A DNA stretch of 64,000 nucleotides. It comes from Desulforapulum autotrophicum (GTDB taxonomy: Bacteria; Desulfobacterota; Desulfobacteria; Desulfobacterales; Desulfolunaceae). The notes under the pieces are model-generated. The model saw nothing but the letters and a program-made list of their open reading frames with translations. It ran no database searches and had not been told where the DNA came from. Of the stretch, positions 47,085 through 58,095 are shown piece by piece (positions within the stretch are counted from its first letter, which is position 1; each line of letters opens with the position of its first letter). A program made the translations under genes and the position numbers. Location of the stretch: positions 1 to 64,000 of the forward strand of contig DYJE01000021.1 of assembly GCA_020723285.1 (NCBI GenBank), in the 5' to 3' direction.

Positions 47085-48452
47085 TTACAAACCGCCCATG
47101 GAATCGGCGCTCAGTTTACGCATCAAGGTGGAGCGCGAGATACCGAGAAGCTTCGCGGCCTTGGTGTAATTGCCGGAAACATGGGACAGGGCCCGCCGGA
47201 TGTGGTGCTGTTCCATTTCACGGAGTGTTTCGATGTGTTTCCTGATTTCGAGGTTTCGAATATCCGCGGAAGGCCCTGTTTCCATGTCCCATGCCGATGC
47301 TTTCATCAGGGCGGAGGGGTGAATGGCGTGGCCGCTGCGAAGGATCACCGCCCGTTCGATGATGTTGCTGAGTTCGCGGATATTTCCGGGCCAGCTGTAA
47401 TCCTGGAGTTTTTGGATTTCAGTGTCGGCGATGGAAAGGGGCGTTTTTCCGCCGAACCGGTCCATGAAATGGGCCGTGAGAAGGGGGATATCCGACCGTC
47501 TTTCCCTCAGCGACGGTATGTGGACAGGGATGATGGAAAGCCGGTAGAACAGGTCTTTCCGCAGTGTTTTTTCTTTTAAGGCTTTGTCCACATCCACATT
47601 GGTCGCCGCGATGACCCGGACATCCACGTCCAGAAAGGTTTCCCCGCCGACCTTCCTGTATTTCCGTTCATCAAGAACGCCCAGAAGCTTGCTCTGGAGG
47701 GCAGGCGGCATTTCTCCAACTTCGTCCAGAAGGAGGGTTCCGCCTTCGGCCAGTTCGAACAGGCCTTTTTTGGTTTTGTCCGCTCCGGTAAACGCCCCTT
47801 TTTCCACACCAAACAACTCGGCCTCGATGAGGTTTTCAGGCAGCGCTGCGCAGTTGACCGTGAGAAAAGGCTTGGCCGCGTTGGGGCCGGTGTAGTGAAT
47901 CGCCTTGGCCAGACGGTTTTTCCCAGTTCCGGTTTCGCCGGTGATGAACACCGGGGAAAGGCTCCGTGCCGCCCGGTCGATCAGGTTTCTGAGCTGGTTG
48001 ACCACGGGACTTTCTCCCACCAGAAAGGCCTCCGATGTTTCCTTGCTCCGGGTGTATTCCTGAACCATGGCTGTCTGTTCAAGATTGAGGGTTTCTATGA
48101 TCCGGGCGATGGTCATGGAAAGTTCCAGGGGCTCGAAAGGCTTGGTGATGTAATCGTGAATTCCGTCTTTGAGGGCGTTTACCGCGTTTTTCAGATCGGG
48201 GTAGGCGGTGACGAAAATGATTTTGGCCTTGTCGTATGTGGCGAGGATTTTTTTGTAAAGATCCGTGCCGTGGATGTCCGGAAGTTTCTGATCCAGAAGG
48301 ACGATGTCCATTTTCATGGCGGAACACAGGGCCAGGGCCTGCTTTCCCGATTCGGCCAGGTGTACCGAAACAGGAAGTCCCGAGAGGTATTCCCGGGCGG
48401 AGTGACGGAACAGGCCGTCGTCATCGATGATCAGCAAACGTCTTGTCTTCAT
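47085..48452 (-). CDS. Sigma-54-dependent NtrC-family response regulator
   Basis: A 455-residue protein: receiver (LLIIDDDG, Asp in IVLLDQKLPDIHG), AAA+ domain (GETGTGKN, GAFTGADKTKKG) and Fis-type HTH (YTKAAKLLGISRSTLMRKL). It activates sigma-54 promoters when phosphorylated. Its start overlaps the end of the hybrid kinase gene by 32 bases, so the two form a sensor-regulator pair. The P-loop Lys is followed by Asn, where most family members have Glu. Confidence 0.93.
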   Translation of the reverse strand: MKTRRLLIIDDDGLFRHSAREYLSGLPVSVHLAESGKQALALCSAMKMDIVLLDQKLPDIHGTDLYKKILATYDKAKIIFVTAYPDLKNAVNALKDGIHDYITKPFEPLELSMTIARIIETLNLEQTAMVQEYTRSKETSEAFLVGESPVVNQLRNLIDRAARSLSPVFITGETGTGKNRLAKAIHYTGPNAAKPFLTVNCAALPENLIEAELFGVEKGAFTGADKTKKGLFELAEGGTLLLDEVGEMPPALQSKLLGVLDERKYRKVGGETFLDVDVRVIAATNVDVDKALKEKTLRKDLFYRLSIIPVHIPSLRERRSDIPLLTAHFMDRFGGKTPLSIADTEIQKLQDYSWPGNIRELSNIIERAVILRSGHAIHPSALMKASAWDMETGPSADIRNLEIRKHIETLREMEQHHIRRALSHVSGNYTKAAKLLGISRSTLMRKLSADSMGGL

Positions 48453-50280
48453 GACAGATCCTTTCTTCCGGGATGAAAATCATCACATGCGTCCCTTTGT
48501 TTTTTTCACTTTCGACCTTGATGGTGCATTTCATGGTGGACAGCATTTTTTTGACGATGACAAGACCCAGTCCAGTGCCGTGGCGTTTTGACGTGTGGAA
48601 TGGTTTGAACAGGTTTAACCGTTCTTCCTTGGTCATGCCGCAGCCGTTGTCGGTGACGTGGATGATGGCGAGTTTCGCTTTTTTTTCCAGGCGGATGGCG
48701 ATGGAAGGCGACGATGTCCGGGTGAGGGCGTCCGCCGCGTTGGTCACCAGATTGAGAAGGACCTGGTGCAGGGCTCTGGGATCGGCGCAGGCGGAAACTG
48801 TCTCCGGCGGGAGATGGAGCCCGATGGCGATGTTTTTTTCTTTGAAATCATCACGGATCAGGCTTGTGAAATGGGTCAGGCATTCGCCGATGTCGATGTT
48901 GAGGATATCCAGGTTTTCGTACATGCTGAAATTCTTGAGTGCTTTGAGCAGGTATTCCACCCTGAGCACTTCTTCAAGGGAACGCTCGGTGAATTCCTTG
49001 ATCATGGCGATGGAATAGGATTCGATGTTATTGTTCAAAACGGTCAGGGCCATCTTGATGGAATTGATGGGGTTGCCGATTTCATGGCGGATGCCCGAAA
49101 AAATATAGCCGATGTTGGTCATGAGGTTGGCAGCTTCGGCGATGGATTCCAGTCTTTTTTTCGAGGTGATGTCCCTGGAGGTTGACACGAAGTTGACGAT
49201 GGTTCCGCTTTCGTTTTTCACCGGGGATATCACCACCTCTTCTTCGTATAGCGTGTCGTCTTTCTTTTTGCTGATGAGGATGCCACTCCAGCTTTTTCCA
49301 AAGGTCAGTTCGGCGCGAATGCGGTTGAAAAAATCACGGGTGTGCTTTTGACTTAAAAGCATGACGTATGCTTTCCCCACCAGTTCCGTCCGCACATAAC
49401 CTGACATTCGTTCAAATGCCGGATTGACATAGAGAATGGTTTCATCGGTGTCCATAATCAGGATACTGTCCGAGGACTGCTCAACCACCTTGCTCAGCTG
49501 GCGGGATTCCCGCTTGGAGTTTTCCTTTTCGCTGATGTCGAGGAGGTAAATGATGACCTGACTGACCAGGCCTCCGGCATCGAAAACCGGGAAGGCGTGG
49601 ATTTCATGGGTTTTTATTTCTCCGGTCTCACAGGTGTAGGGATGGATCATCATGACGGGCTTTTTTGTTTCACTGACAGCGGCAACCGGACAGGGATAGC
49701 CATTGCAGAGGTAGGGCCGGCAGGTTTTTCCAGCATTCTCCCTGCAACAGACGCCTTCTTTGAACCAGCCGTTTTTCGCGGCGGAATTGGCCATGGTGAT
49801 GGTGTTGTCGCTGGGATTCACCACAAGGAAAGGGTGGGTCAGGGATTCCAGGATGGACATTAGAAAGTCGTTCTGGGATTTGACATGCAGGGCGGCCAGC
49901 TGACGTTCGATGGCGTACCGGATGGAACGCTCAAGCTGATGCCGATCGATTTTCCCTTTGATCAGGTAGTCCTGGGCTCCCGATTTCAGGGCGATGACCG
50001 CAGATTCTTCATCGTCCTGGGATGTGAGAACGATGACGGGAATCGATGGGGCAAGATTCCTTACGGGCGAAAGGGTGGCGATGCCCCGGCTGTCCGGGAG
50101 GTTGAGGTCGAGCAGAAGAACATCGAACGTGGTTTTTCCAAGGCTTTCAAGTCCTGCGGCCAGCGTTCCGGCCCATTCGATCACATAGCCGGCGCTGCTT
50201 CCTGAAAGCAGCCTACTGGCTATCTTGAAATCGAATGGGTTGTCTTCAATGATCAATACGCTGCATGGATCGTTTTTCAT
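48421..50280 (-). CDS. Receiver-PAS-PAS histidine kinase
   Basis: A 619-residue cytoplasmic kinase. The N-terminal receiver (VLIIEDNPFDFKIA, Asp in LLLDLNLPDSRG) comes first. A first PAS carries an unusual Cys-rich insertion (CCRENAGKTCRPYLCNGYPC), then a second PAS (VNPAFERMSGY), a HisKA H-box (GIRHEIGNPINSIK) and an HATPase (NLVTNAADAL, DNGCGMTKE, GTGLGLVIVKKM). It pairs with the NtrC-type regulator. The Cys cluster could bind a metal or Fe-S centre, or sense redox state. Confidence 0.9.
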   Translation of the reverse strand: MKNDPCSVLIIEDNPFDFKIASRLLSGSSAGYVIEWAGTLAAGLESLGKTTFDVLLLDLNLPDSRGIATLSPVRNLAPSIPVIVLTSQDDEESAVIALKSGAQDYLIKGKIDRHQLERSIRYAIERQLAALHVKSQNDFLMSILESLTHPFLVVNPSDNTITMANSAAKNGWFKEGVCCRENAGKTCRPYLCNGYPCPVAAVSETKKPVMMIHPYTCETGEIKTHEIHAFPVFDAGGLVSQVIIYLLDISEKENSKRESRQLSKVVEQSSDSILIMDTDETILYVNPAFERMSGYVRTELVGKAYVMLLSQKHTRDFFNRIRAELTFGKSWSGILISKKKDDTLYEEEVVISPVKNESGTIVNFVSTSRDITSKKRLESIAEAANLMTNIGYIFSGIRHEIGNPINSIKMALTVLNNNIESYSIAMIKEFTERSLEEVLRVEYLLKALKNFSMYENLDILNIDIGECLTHFTSLIRDDFKEKNIAIGLHLPPETVSACADPRALHQVLLNLVTNAADALTRTSSPSIAIRLEKKAKLAIIHVTDNGCGMTKEERLNLFKPFHTSKRHGTGLGLVIVKKMLSTMKCTIKVESEKNKGTHVMIFIPEERICHEDKTFADHR

Positions 50281-50471: not shown

Positions 50472-52832
50472 TCAGGTAAAAGTCAGGAACCCGAAGTGTT
50501 CCGGCAGATGAAACTTGGGGGTGGGGTAATCGATGGGTGCCCAGGTCAGCCAGTGGGGGCGGGATGTTTTGTCGGCACATTTGTGGAAATTCCCGCGCCA
50601 GGATACACCGGGCGAAGGCTGGGTGACAGCCGTGAACGGTTCAAGGACATGGTAAGGTATTCGGCAGGCCACCGTCCATGTGACCGGTTCCGTGATTTCC
50701 TGGGTAATGGGGCCGGAAAGGGATGCGGAAACGGTGATGTCGTGGAATGAGGCTTCAGGTATCCGGATGAATCCGGCCTCACCTGGAGGATGGAACTCGA
50801 ATAGGGCTGTGCCGCAGCAGTTGATTTCAAGATTGAAGTAACCCTTGTCACAGGCAGGCCCGGGCGAAAAGAAAAATTCGACACAGCTGTCCTGGTACAC
50901 ACGCCCCTGGTAACCTTCGGCCACGGCTTTGACATAACGGTCTTCCACGTGGAAAATCACGTGGACCGCATGGGTATCGTATGCGATTTTAAAAAAAGTC
51001 ATGGGTCGATGCGCCGGTTCTTCTCCCATATGGTGGGTCAGCATGATGGCTTGTTCCTGTTTCCAGGCGTCGGCATTGAAGTCGCAGAAAACCTGGGAAC
51101 CGCATGCATAAGGTCTCACCGTTAACGAGGGGTTTAAGTCTTTTGAATGTTTCGTATCGTCCGAGTTAAGAACCATTCTGACATTTTCAGACAATGAACG
51201 GCTGGAAAAGGGTTTTTGCAGATAGTGAACATCCGGGTCAAGAATGCCGCGTTTTGATATGGCATTTCTCGAATACCCCGACATGAAAAGAACTTTGATG
51301 GCGGGTCGTCGCTCAAGAATACGCTTGGACAGCTCCATGCCGTTCATTTCGGGCATGATCACATCGGTGATCAGAAGATCTATGGTTTCTCGGACGGAGC
51401 CGGCCAAGGCAATGGCCGCATGGGCGGTGGGAACGGCGAGCACACGGTATCCCAGTTTTTCGAGCATGGTCTGGCCAATTTTAAGAATGGACGGTTCGTC
51501 TTCCACCAGCAGAATGGTTTCACTGCCCTGTTCGATGGAATCAGGATCGGCAGCAGGGTTTGCAGGTTTCTGTAAAGGAGAAATGTCTTCGAGTCTTGGA
51601 AGATAGATCCTGAAGGTCGATCCTCGCTGCGGTTCGCTGCAAACGTTGATGAAACCCTGGTTCTGTCTGACGATTCCATAGACCATGGAGAGCCCAAGCC
51701 CCGTCCCTTTGCCCACATCCTTGGTGGTGTAAAAGGGTTCGAATATATGGTTCATCACGTTTTTATCCATGCCGCAGCCATTGTCGCTGACGGACAGAAG
51801 CACGTAATCCCCGGGCTCTACACCCCGGCTTGTCCAAAGAGCCTCATCACTCGTGCAGTTCGCTGTTTCGATGGTGATGATTCCGAAACCCGTCATGGCG
51901 TCGCGGGCGTTGATGCACAGATTGGACAGGATCTGCTGGATCTGGCCCGGATCGATTTTCACAGGCCACAAATCATGACCGGGCTGAAAGGCCAGCGTCA
52001 CGTCTTCGCCGATCATCCGCTGGAGCATTTTCAGTATCTCTGACACTGTTTCATTGATGTCCATAACCCGCGGGGCTATGGTTTGTTTCCTGGCAAAAGC
52101 CAGAAGCTGGCGTGTCAGATCCGCCGACCGGTTGGCTGCGGCAAGGATTTCCTGGAGGTTTGCATGCACGGGATTGTCCGGGTGGACCATGCCCATGGCA
52201 ATTTCAGCGTGGCCGATGATCACGCTGAGCATGTTGTTGAAATCGTGGGCCACGCCGCCGGCAAGTTTTCCGATGGATTCGATTTTCTGGGCCTGGATCA
52301 GTTGTGATTTCAGTTTTTCACTTTCAGCCTCTTGACGCTTTTCCTCACTGACATCAAATTCGATGCCGTCCCACAAAAGGCATCCGTCCGAATCGAAACG
52401 AGGGGTCGAAACAAAACGCCGCCAGCTTCGTTTCCCCGGTGGATAATCAACCTGTACATCGATTTTGAACGTGCTCATACAGCTTACGGCTTCAGCCTCT
52501 TTTTCAGCCAGCAGGGTCTGGTACTCCGGTGAAACCTGGTTATAGATCCGCAAAGGTTCTCTTATGGCTTCATCGGGTGTAATCCCGTGCATGCGAATCA
52601 CTGCGCTGCTGATGTAGGTGAAACGCCGGTCTGATCCGTCAGAGCCAGTGTTGATCTGGTAAACCATGCCGTTTCCGATGTTTTCGTTAAGGGCTCGGAG
52701 CTGGGCTTCACTCTTTCTCAGGGCATCTTCCGTTTTTTGGGGGTCTGTTTGTATATTTTTAGAGGAAATCCGGTCTGTTGCGTTGGACATTCGGGTGTTG
52801 TCGTTCGGCATGCTCCCCCTTCCGGAATACAT
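50472..52832 (-). CDS. PAS-histidine kinase-receiver fused to a CBM9/DOMON-like domain
   Basis: A single 786-residue chain: PAS (about residues 40-165), HisKA H-box (GGVAHDFNNMLSVIIGHAEIAM), HATPase (NLCINARDAM, DNGCGMDKN, GTGLGLSMVYG) and receiver (ETILLVEDEPSILKIG, Asp in LLITDVIMPEMNG). Residues about 563-786 have a different character: a CBM9-like/DOMON beta-sandwich (FFKIAYDTHAVHVIFHVEDRYV, YQDSCVEFFFSP, FNLEINCCGTALFEFH, WRGNFHKCAD). No signal peptide or membrane segment is seen, so this domain would be cytosolic. It is open in one frame with no stop between receiver and tail. Confidence 0.85.
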   Translation of the reverse strand: MYSGRGSMPNDNTRMSNATDRISSKNIQTDPQKTEDALRKSEAQLRALNENIGNGMVYQINTGSDGSDRRFTYISSAVIRMHGITPDEAIREPLRIYNQVSPEYQTLLAEKEAEAVSCMSTFKIDVQVDYPPGKRSWRRFVSTPRFDSDGCLLWDGIEFDVSEEKRQEAESEKLKSQLIQAQKIESIGKLAGGVAHDFNNMLSVIIGHAEIAMGMVHPDNPVHANLQEILAAANRSADLTRQLLAFARKQTIAPRVMDINETVSEILKMLQRMIGEDVTLAFQPGHDLWPVKIDPGQIQQILSNLCINARDAMTGFGIITIETANCTSDEALWTSRGVEPGDYVLLSVSDNGCGMDKNVMNHIFEPFYTTKDVGKGTGLGLSMVYGIVRQNQGFINVCSEPQRGSTFRIYLPRLEDISPLQKPANPAADPDSIEQGSETILLVEDEPSILKIGQTMLEKLGYRVLAVPTAHAAIALAGSVRETIDLLITDVIMPEMNGMELSKRILERRPAIKVLFMSGYSRNAISKRGILDPDVHYLQKPFSSRSLSENVRMVLNSDDTKHSKDLNPSLTVRPYACGSQVFCDFNADAWKQEQAIMLTHHMGEEPAHRPMTFFKIAYDTHAVHVIFHVEDRYVKAVAEGYQGRVYQDSCVEFFFSPGPACDKGYFNLEINCCGTALFEFHPPGEAGFIRIPEASFHDITVSASLSGPITQEITEPVTWTVACRIPYHVLEPFTAVTQPSPGVSWRGNFHKCADKTSRPHWLTWAPIDYPTPKFHLPEHFGFLTFT

Positions 52833-53088: not shown

Positions 53089-53403
53089 TCAGATCAGTTC
53101 ATCAATGTTGTAACCGACCATTTTATCCGCGATTTTTTCCGCATTGACCTGGTATGTCCCGTTGTCCACGTTTGCTTTGATTTCATAGACTTTTTCCTGG
53201 CGGACATCCGGGGCCGCGGCCACAGCCTCGCTGGCGATTTTCATGTCTTTTGCGCTGGACGACAGGCTGACCTTGTCTTCAGGAATTTCCTTTTTCTTCT
53301 CGGCCTGCTGGTTTTTTGTCATTTCCTGGGGCGGGGGCGTGTTTTCAACCTCCCTGGCGTAGGCCTGGCGACCGAAAGTGACATTGGTTTCATTGATTTT
53401 CAT
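53089..53403 (-). CDS. flgM: Anti-sigma-28 factor FlgM
   Basis: A 104-residue protein whose C-terminal half fits FlgM: KVSLSSSAKDMKIASEAVAAAPDVRQEKV...DNGTYQVNAEKIADKMVG. It binds FliA and holds back late flagellar genes until the hook is done. It sits 14 bases after a 142-residue gene, on the minus strand. No other flagellar genes are in view, so this is a detached pair as in Desulfovibrio. Confidence 0.92.
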   Translation of the reverse strand: MKINETNVTFGRQAYAREVENTPPPQEMTKNQQAEKKKEIPEDKVSLSSSAKDMKIASEAVAAAPDVRQEKVYEIKANVDNGTYQVNAEKIADKMVGYNIDELI

Positions 53404-53417
53404 ACATGACCTCCGGG

Positions 53418-53846
53418 TTATGATTCCATATTTTTATCTATGGTTTCCTTTACGAGCTGTTCGAGTTTTCGACTTACGATTTTCGAGTCTTCCACGGAAA
53501 GGGTGCTTGTGACTTTTTCATTGTTGTCACCAATAAAATTGAACACAAACTGGCTTTCCTTTTTATTGTAACCCTGGAACTTGCCTTTGAGCTCCTGGTT
53601 CAGTTTATCAACGATGTCCCGGTCCGCCTCGTCTTTGGGGCCATACGTGGTAATCCGTTCGAGGATATCCGCCGACACCTTGTCGATGATGGTCTGACGC
53701 TTGCCTTCTTCGGAAATGGAGATGCTGTCACTGCTTTTCTGGGATTCCATGCCCAGGCTTTTCTGCTTCTCCGCGATCCGGTTCTGGCTGATCTGCTTGC
53801 TGTAGACCTTGATCACATTATTTATCTGATAAGACGGTATGTGCAT
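53418..53846 (-). CDS. Conserved protein next to flgM
   Basis: A 142-residue, mostly helical protein with no signal peptide or membrane segment (SKQISQNRIAEKQKSLGMESQKSSDSISISEEGKRQTIIDKV). Genes like this precede flgM in Desulfovibrio and relatives. The SDSISIS segment resembles the FlgM kind of Ser-rich linker. Probably flagellar; function unknown. Confidence 0.7.
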   Translation of the reverse strand: MHIPSYQINNVIKVYSKQISQNRIAEKQKSLGMESQKSSDSISISEEGKRQTIIDKVSADILERITTYGPKDEADRDIVDKLNQELKGKFQGYNKKESQFVFNFIGDNNEKVTSTLSVEDSKIVSRKLEQLVKETIDKNMES

Positions 53847-56215: not shown

Positions 56216-56412
56216 CCAGTCTGCCCGGAAATCGGAACGTCGTCACTTGTGGGGAAATGGGCAATCCAAATTGATTCAATGAAATATTATACGTGAAAAT
56301 GTTACGGAAAATCAACAGGTTTGTTCGATGATCAGATCCTTCTGTTGACTTCACCCGGAATGTCCCGTACAGAATGGGGCGAGCCATTTTCGTGGAAACA
56401 AGGAGGAATATC

Positions 56413-58095
56413 ATGGCCTTTCCGTACATACATCGGGTTTTCAGGTTTGTGTTGTGTGTCGCTCTATTTTTTTTTATCGGGGTTTGCGCTTCTTCAGCCG
56501 ATCCGGTTAAAAAACCTGAAAATAAAGCGAAAATAACCAATCTGGCCCGGCTGCTGAAATCCATGGACAGTTTGACGGCTGCCATGGAAGACAAGAACCG
56601 TCGTCTTGTGGGTCCCGAAGGTCAGGGACGGGAACAGACGATCCGAGCTGAGATCAGCGAGCTTCAGAAAAAATACGAGGCCCTTGAAAAAAATTTCAAC
56701 GATCTTGCGTCGGAAGTGAACTACGACGCCATCGTCAATCCTGAAAAATCGAAGGGTTTCAACTGGAACGAAGAGTTGAGGGAAATACTTGGCCCCCTCA
56801 TTCGTGAAGTCCAGAGGGCCACCTCCAAACCCCGTGAAATCGAAAAACACCGGAGCGACATCGAGGCCTACGATTTTCAGCTCCAGAATATCGAACGCGC
56901 CATGGGGCATGTCATGAGCCTCATGGATACCAGTGCGTCACAGCCCCGGCTCAAGGAAAAGCTCACCGAGTCTCTGGCCATGTGGGAAAGCCGGCGAAAC
57001 GATGTGGAAACCCTGAAAAGCATATCCAATCTCCAGCTTGAAAAAATCAGGCAGGAAACCGAGTCCCTGGCCCAGGCGGTGCAGAAAATTCCAAGTCTGT
57101 TTTTCAAAAGCCATGGTCGAAATCTTTTGTTGTCTCTTCTGGCTCTGGGTTTCGCTGTTTACGGTTTTTACCGGCTTTTCCATCTGATCCGCCGCCACAG
57201 CCCGTTTCATAAAGATGAAAAATCCTTGTATTCCAGAGCTTTTGACCTGGGGTACACGGTTATTTCCTGTCTATTGAGTCTCATCGTCGTCCTGGCTGTA
57301 TTGTATTTTTGCAGCGACTGGGTTCTTCTTTCCATCGCCATCCTTTTTCTTTTCGGAATTGCATGGACCTCCAAAGAATCGGTTCCGAGGATCTGGAATC
57401 AGGCTCGGTTGATTCTGAACCTCGGACCTGTGAGAGAGGGTGAGCTGGTGGTCTACAACGGAATCCCTTACAAGGTGGCGTCCATCAACATGTACACCTT
57501 ATTATATAATCCGGCCATTCCCAGTGCCAGAATCCGACTGCCCATCACCGATCTTGAAACCATGCGTTCGAGGCCGGTGGATGTGAATGAGCCCTGGTTC
57601 CCGTCAAGGGTGGGCGATTTCGTCCTCATTGAAGGTGACATGGAAAGGGTCGGACGGGTCGTGGCCCAGACTCCTGAGACCGTTCTCATTGAATTCGCGG
57701 GCGGTGCGAAACTGTCAACCAGTACGGCGAATTATCTGGCTGCTCCACCGCTGAATCTCTCTTCAGGTTTCAGGATTCGTCAGCTGTTCAATTTCGATTA
57801 CGCTGACCAGAGCCGGGTGACCCGGGATATTCCCCCAGCCGTGAAAACGGCAGTGGAAGATGTTCTTTCCCTCGAAGGGTTTGCAGAAAGACTGCTGGGG
57901 CTTCGCGTGGATTTCAAACAGGCGGCGAGTTCATCACTTGATATTGAAATTTCAGCGGATTTTGTCGGAGATGCCGCAATGGAATACATCCATATCAAAC
58001 GGGTGATTCAGCGTGCCTGTGTGGAAGTCTGCTCGCTCAATAACTGGAATATCCCATTTAACCAGCTGACCGTTCATATGTCTGGCAAGCATTAG
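56413..58095 (+). CDS. MscS-family mechanosensitive channel-like protein
   Basis: A 560-residue protein starting at 56413 with AAGGAGGA 6 bases upstream. A signal peptide (about 1-30) is followed by a long periplasmic coiled-coil region, three or so membrane segments (about 235-330) and an MscS-like soluble C-terminal domain (LVVYNGIPYKVASINMYTLLYNP; VGDFVLIEGDMERVGRVVAQTPETVLIEF). The coiled-coil prefix makes it resemble the larger MscK/YbdG-type members. It should release solutes in hypo-osmotic shock. Confidence 0.8.
   Translation: MAFPYIHRVFRFVLCVALFFFIGVCASSADPVKKPENKAKITNLARLLKSMDSLTAAMEDKNRRLVGPEGQGREQTIRAEISELQKKYEALEKNFNDLASEVNYDAIVNPEKSKGFNWNEELREILGPLIREVQRATSKPREIEKHRSDIEAYDFQLQNIERAMGHVMSLMDTSASQPRLKEKLTESLAMWESRRNDVETLKSISNLQLEKIRQETESLAQAVQKIPSLFFKSHGRNLLLSLLALGFAVYGFYRLFHLIRRHSPFHKDEKSLYSRAFDLGYTVISCLLSLIVVLAVLYFCSDWVLLSIAILFLFGIAWTSKESVPRIWNQARLILNLGPVREGELVVYNGIPYKVASINMYTLLYNPAIPSARIRLPITDLETMRSRPVDVNEPWFPSRVGDFVLIEGDMERVGRVVAQTPETVLIEFAGGAKLSTSTANYLAAPPLNLSSGFRIRQLFNFDYADQSRVTRDIPPAVKTAVEDVLSLEGFAERLLGLRVDFKQAASSSLDIEISADFVGDAAMEYIHIKRVIQRACVEVCSLNNWNIPFNQLTVHMSGKH

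Follow-up and report, generated by a model that had tools for sequence, protein, structure and literature searches.

What is a carbohydrate-binding type of domain doing at the end of a histidine kinase, and do the two really belong to one protein? In the 64,000-nucleotide stretch of the Desulforapulum autotrophicum genome analysed here (the window), one frame had been predicted to encode a complete PAS-HisKA-HATPase-receiver kinase followed by a CBM9/DOMON-like tail. Positions 50472-52832 (-) form a single open frame with zero internal stops, of 786 aa when counted from ATG 52832, where our residue numbering starts. A second ATG at 52811 (residue 8), with a Shine-Dalgarno pairing of -10.1 kcal/mol vs 0.4 at ATG 52832, is the likelier start and would yield a product of 779 aa. 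The fusion frame is confirmed as real, with the boundary between receiver and tail near residues 552-563, and third-position G+C is nearly equal across its two halves (0.60 and 0.61).

Table 1. Features of the fusion gene and its neighbours, in positions of the window; residues are those of the fusion protein.
Feature	Position	Strand	Basis
Fusion gene	50472..52811	(-)	Open frame with strong Shine-Dalgarno; 786 aa if begun at 52832
PAS-like region (weak), residues ~44-153	52374..52703	(-)	PAS_8 E 0.0026 and PAS_4 E 0.018, both below Pfam cut-offs
HisKA, residues 188-250	52083..52271	(-)	PF00512 barely over cut-off; presumed phospho-acceptor His196 within GGVAHDFNN
HATPase_c, residues 294-413	51594..51953	(-)	PF02518 E 4.1e-22; N, G1, F, G2 motifs at 304, 350, 364, 376
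Receiver (Response_reg), residues 440-551	51180..51515	(-)	PF00072 E 1.1e-19; Asp490, Asp445, Ser518, Lys540
Linker, residues 552-562	51147..51179	(-)	Approximately where related hybrid kinases terminate
CBM9_2 domain, residues 563-786	50475..51146	(-)	PF16011 E 1e-38; pLDDT 94; 4jpq Z 30.8; conservation
REC-PAS-HisKA-HATPase kinase, 619 aa, possible partner	48421..50280	(-)	Adjoins fusion gene
NtrC-type sigma-54 response regulator	47085..48452	(-)	32-base overlap with 619-aa kinase gene

Domains of the two halves

Judged by its domains, the first half is a hybrid histidine kinase, in which HisKA (27.5 bits vs a cut-off of 26.9), HATPase_c and receiver are joined and a candidate phospho-His and phospho-Asp are both present; His196, the nucleotide-binding motifs and receiver residues Asp445, Asp490, Ser518 and Lys540 are all in place. 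The predicted kinase thus stands in its HisKA, HATPase and receiver portions, all over their cut-offs and with motifs intact, whereas the PAS domain is weak, its best Pfam match (PAS_8, 18.0 bits) falling short of the cut-off of 21.8. NCBIfam model PRK13557 aligns over residues 66-558 with an E-value of 5e-110, yet reaches 368 bits vs its own cut-off of 631, and CckA proper was not recovered at the NCBIfam equivalog cut-off of 1000 (409.2 and 331.1 bits). The fusion protein has the kinase-then-receiver order and the motifs of CckA/PRK13557-type PAS hybrid kinases but scores under the cut-offs of their models, and it continues where 30 kinase relatives stop at the receiver.

The tail is assigned to CBM9_2 (PF16011), and its predicted model has the CBM9 beta-sandwich fold. 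The Pfam match spans residues 606-785 and profile positions 25-199 of 199, at 133.6 bits vs a curated cut-off of 25, with CBM9_1 as a secondary, weak match; a profile search of the tail, proposed along with the original prediction, accordingly returned CBM9_2 and no kinase-associated domain. Structure prediction, likewise proposed, gave an AlphaFold2 model with a pLDDT of 94.1, for which Foldseek and VIA-align (matches of Z <7.7, mostly antibody chains, set aside) placed 4jpq first at Z 30.8, with the CBM9 modules 7nwn (20.5), 1i82 (19.9) and 7nwo at Z 19.8-20.5. The first of these, BACUNI_03838 of Bacteroides uniformis, is a solved member of PF16011 that resembles the tail in sequence (E 8.8e-28) as well as fold, but it is a separate 220-residue chain, whereas in the fusion protein PF16011 forms the C-terminal domain of a kinase. 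TmCBM9-2 (1i82) and CBM9.3 of Caldicellulosiruptor kristjanssonii (7nwn) have the fold in common with the tail; they differ in being xylanase modules with 13-16% identity to it, and where TmCBM9-2 has Trp175 the tail would, by a weak alignment, have Phe.

Conservation extends over the whole domain: 27 free-standing relatives align with the tail over nearly its entire length at 31-50% identity. When the tail was held out, it agreed with 120 relatives at 34/34 columns that are ≥95% conserved among them and at 37/38 of the 90% columns, the exception being tail residue 26 (Phe, where 109/120 have Trp). Seven polar positions are invariant in all 121 rows: Asp648, Ser649, Glu652, Glu669, Asn748, Lys751 and His775 (tail numbering Asp89, Ser90, Glu93, Glu110, Asn189, Lys192 and His216).

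Relatives and rarity of the fusion

The host genome is rich in kinases: a first look with the kinase query gave 273 candidates, and each of the 24 that were scored (fusion included) matched at E ≤1e-80. All 30 related hybrid kinases that were read end 0-13 residues past the receiver match: 19/19 paralogues in the host genome, read out of the 23 others scored there, and 11/11 from other genomes. An apparent 21-residue overhang in one kinase (L014) consists of letters beyond a stop inside the match. Because none of these relatives has the tail, it is probably a derived addition. The tail itself is the only PF16011 copy in the genome, and in a quick tree of 121 rows it pairs with the lone copy of a same-family genome (G001; SH-aLRT 84, branch unstarred), a placement that is compatible with, though short of proof for, vertical descent of the CBM9_2 domain. 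Since this nearest relative of the tail (L023) is a lone gene that no kinase adjoins, the simplest history would be relocation and fusion in the host lineage.

PF16011 was scanned for in 1,571 genome draws, overlapping in part, and in 80 named loci. It occurs in 42/389 genomes of the class sample and 11/395 of the phylum sample, in 38/395 from the phylum of L112 (Chryseolinea) and in 55/392 from that of L095 (Planctomycetota), and across scans and named loci it is found mostly as lone proteins. Beyond the fusion, the sole frame of >330 residues in the class and phylum samples was a DUF362 protein of 659 residues, which PF16011 matches in part. The named-genome scan yielded at least 588 confirmed relatives, with frames read for the best 80, among which L110 and L111 begin at a DNA edge. 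Frames of ≥400 residues were compared with six references taken from the window and from locus L028 (two kinases, two NtrC regulators, a chemoreceptor and the tail) at 16 + 36 + 4 loci, the first 16 including five named loci with such frames and five with <400 residues, and genome G1294 being represented twice. No second kinase-CBM9_2 frame emerged, there being no match to a signalling reference in the 16 loci (E to 10) or in the 36 + 4 (E to 1); as a positive control the references recover the fusion protein, although a very divergent kinase might escape them. Frames of lesser length have no room for both this kinase core and the tail.

The combination is one of two known domains newly joined, encountered once across the genomes searched. 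No such fusion was known to the original prediction; none comparable turned up among genome draws, named loci and compared frames, and no kinase-CBM9_2 fusion appeared in searches of the open-licence literature. Novel domain combinations are frequent among histidine kinases. Other partners fused to PF16011 are ApbE, GH123, HEAT, amidohydrolase, TPR and DUF362: an ApbE-family domain with a C-terminal CBM9_2 and a hydrophobic N-terminus in Planctomycetota bacterium RS_9_9 (L108:2358-4094), a GH123-like region with CBM9_2 at the C-terminus in Anaerohalosphaeraceae bacterium SMBSF06 (L084:3196-6606), and, in genome G1477 (L228:707-3255), a HEAT-repeat-matching protein with CBM9_2 at its end, whose gene lies immediately ahead of one for a lone CBM9_2. 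Further long frames among the first 16 loci (L079, L086, L100, L233, L234 and L237) look like chance open frames ahead of a lone gene.

Compartment, candidate ligand site and neighbourhood

The fusion protein was correctly predicted to have no membrane segment, its highest 19-residue Kyte-Doolittle mean being 1.25. A cytoplasmic encounter with the ligand had been regarded as an oddity of the fusion, a view that the relatives do not bear out. By a 12-residue hydropathy rule, distinct from a signal-peptide predictor, a hydrophobic stretch upstream of CBM9_2 is present in 0/49 lone relatives from Desulfobacterota and in 37/71 other relatives (120 distinct relatives in total), where the 49 comprise 45 from the class and phylum genome samples and the named loci L063, L071, L091 and L136, of which L091 is labelled just "Proteobacteria" and L071 "Deltaproteobacteria". 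Leaderless CBM9_2 proteins are, by this rule, normal for Desulfobacterota, and a cytoplasmic location of the tail is therefore not odd per se: the name "carbohydrate-binding module" need not imply an accessory of a secreted enzyme. LadS (PMC4866733) is a hybrid kinase whose DISMED2 sensor domain is periplasmic and adjoins a membrane region of 7 helices. As described there, it combines a kinase with a predicted carbohydrate-binding-module-like domain, as the fusion protein does, but its domain is periplasmic and accompanied by a membrane region, whereas that of the fusion protein is C-terminal in a protein where a membrane segment is absent.

Does the tail retain a site for sugars? According to PMC8280721, sugar is clamped between Trp71 and Trp175 in TmCBM9-2 and between Tyr89 and Trp191 in CBM9.3, whose crystals are nearly unchanged upon binding. 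Weak alignments (1i82, E 0.17; local hhalign probability 35%) place Tyr646 (tail 87) at Trp71, so that by sequence the tail has Tyr there as sugar-binding CBM9.3 does at Tyr89, and a forced global alignment (probability 22%) places Phe774 (tail 215) at Trp175. Position 215 is Phe in 121/121 rows, and position 87 is Trp in 36, Tyr in 31, Cys in 30, Ser in 13 and Phe in 11. With Cys or Ser in 43/121 rows at the latter position, many PF16011 members would be without this clamp; the aromatic residues permit a putative sugar clamp in the fusion tail, and a uniform clamp across the family appears disfavoured. Because several polar residues are invariant, PF16011 may recognise a target more specific than a sugar ring. 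A described ligand or function for PF16011 was not found in searches of the open-licence literature.

Downstream of the fusion gene, a 191-base gap precedes the gene pair for the 619-aa kinase and the NtrC-type regulator, which lie on the same strand and are plausible signalling partners of the fusion protein. The gap contains a promoter-like match without proven meaning, such matches numbering 5 in the region vs 2.7 expected. Just upstream (53089-53846, -) are a FlgM-type anti-sigma-28 gene and a gene for 142 residues that is below all family cut-offs, and 56374-58095 (+) encodes a protein of 573 residues that has hydrophobic segments but matches nothing in Pfam at E 0.001. Elsewhere in Desulfobacterota, 5/47 loci with a lone CBM9_2 (5/89 neighbours) have an immediate neighbour that encodes a kinase, NtrC or chemoreceptor, and as lone genes thus have no general signalling link, neighbourhood was dropped as a clue to the ligand. 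Two of the five loci, from two species of one genus of the host family, have the identical arrangement, in which lone CBM9_2 is followed first by an NtrC-type regulator and next by a gene resembling chemoreceptors (L028:1375-6181 in G004 and L029:4883-10066 in G002).

Possible roles of the tail

A genuine fusion, in which a once free-standing cytoplasmic CBM9_2 protein became the C-terminus of one host hybrid kinase, is the best explanation of the locus, given the open frame, the conserved residues in both halves, the 30 kinases without a tail and the fact that the tail is the sole CBM9_2 of the genome. As to its role, our main reading, to which we give a probability of roughly 45%, is that the tail serves as a ligand-binding module coupled to kinase or receiver. 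The putative ligand would be a small molecule of the cytoplasm, in the simplest case a sugar or a derivative of one, held by Tyr646 and Phe774 on either side; its binding would change the receiver or the kinase and hence the flow of phosphate, which might be passed on to the adjacent pair of REC-PAS kinase and NtrC-type sigma-54 regulator. Taken as a whole, a soluble hybrid kinase whose C-terminal CBM9-type module detects a sugar, or a metabolite derived from one, inside the cell and whose own receiver relays to a sigma-54 pathway is an unlikely picture. The barely altered structure of CBM9.3 upon binding makes that module a poor precedent for a sensor role.

The tail could instead be an effector whose binding or action is governed by the phosphorylated receiver. 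Effector domains are usually found following a receiver, which is where the tail sits; the PAS-like region is already available as an input, and the invariant polar residues outside the clamp (121/121 rows) could signify more than plain binding. However, PF16011 has no known activity and any contact between receiver and tail is putative, and we regard such an output role as somewhat improbable. It is also conceivable, if rather doubtful, that the tail retains a former, unrelated cytoplasmic task for which the kinase is just the carrier: the genome has no other CBM9_2, the tail is well conserved, lone copies have no common neighbourhood, and the presence of the family is patchy, as in the class sample.

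An assembly or sequencing error that erased a stop between two neighbouring genes would account for a joined form known from one genome only, and several linker codons are a single change away from a stop. However, the receiver/tail join is inside an 88-kb contig, and the lone gene of the nearest relative has no kinase beside it. Nor does the tail appear to have a convincing start of its own: in-frame codons 553 and 572 are without Shine-Dalgarno (0.4 and 1.2 kcal/mol), and codon 597 (-4.3 kcal/mol), which falls inside the CBM9_2 domain, pairs no better than background, whose 5% and 25% quantiles (-6.4 and -3.8) enclose its value, all of which leaves an error very unlikely. Least credible is that the tail senses redox state through bound haem, as a member of the broader DOMON-like fold group. 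The tail model does match the haem-carrying 2ivf_C (ethylbenzene dehydrogenase, Z 14.1) and, weakly, DOMON-type cellobiose dehydrogenase cytochrome 1d7c (Z 7.9), besides 7b04_C (nitrite oxidoreductase, Z 12.8), but it scores much higher with CBM9 modules. DOMON is absent among the Pfam matches of the fusion protein; the predicted fold was correct, and the family is CBM9_2.

Should the tail prove to be a receptor for sugars inside the cell, a carbohydrate-binding module would be serving in intracellular signalling, which would raise the interest of the fusion. PF16011 is widespread, and its fusion to a kinase offers a measurable readout with which ligands may be screened.
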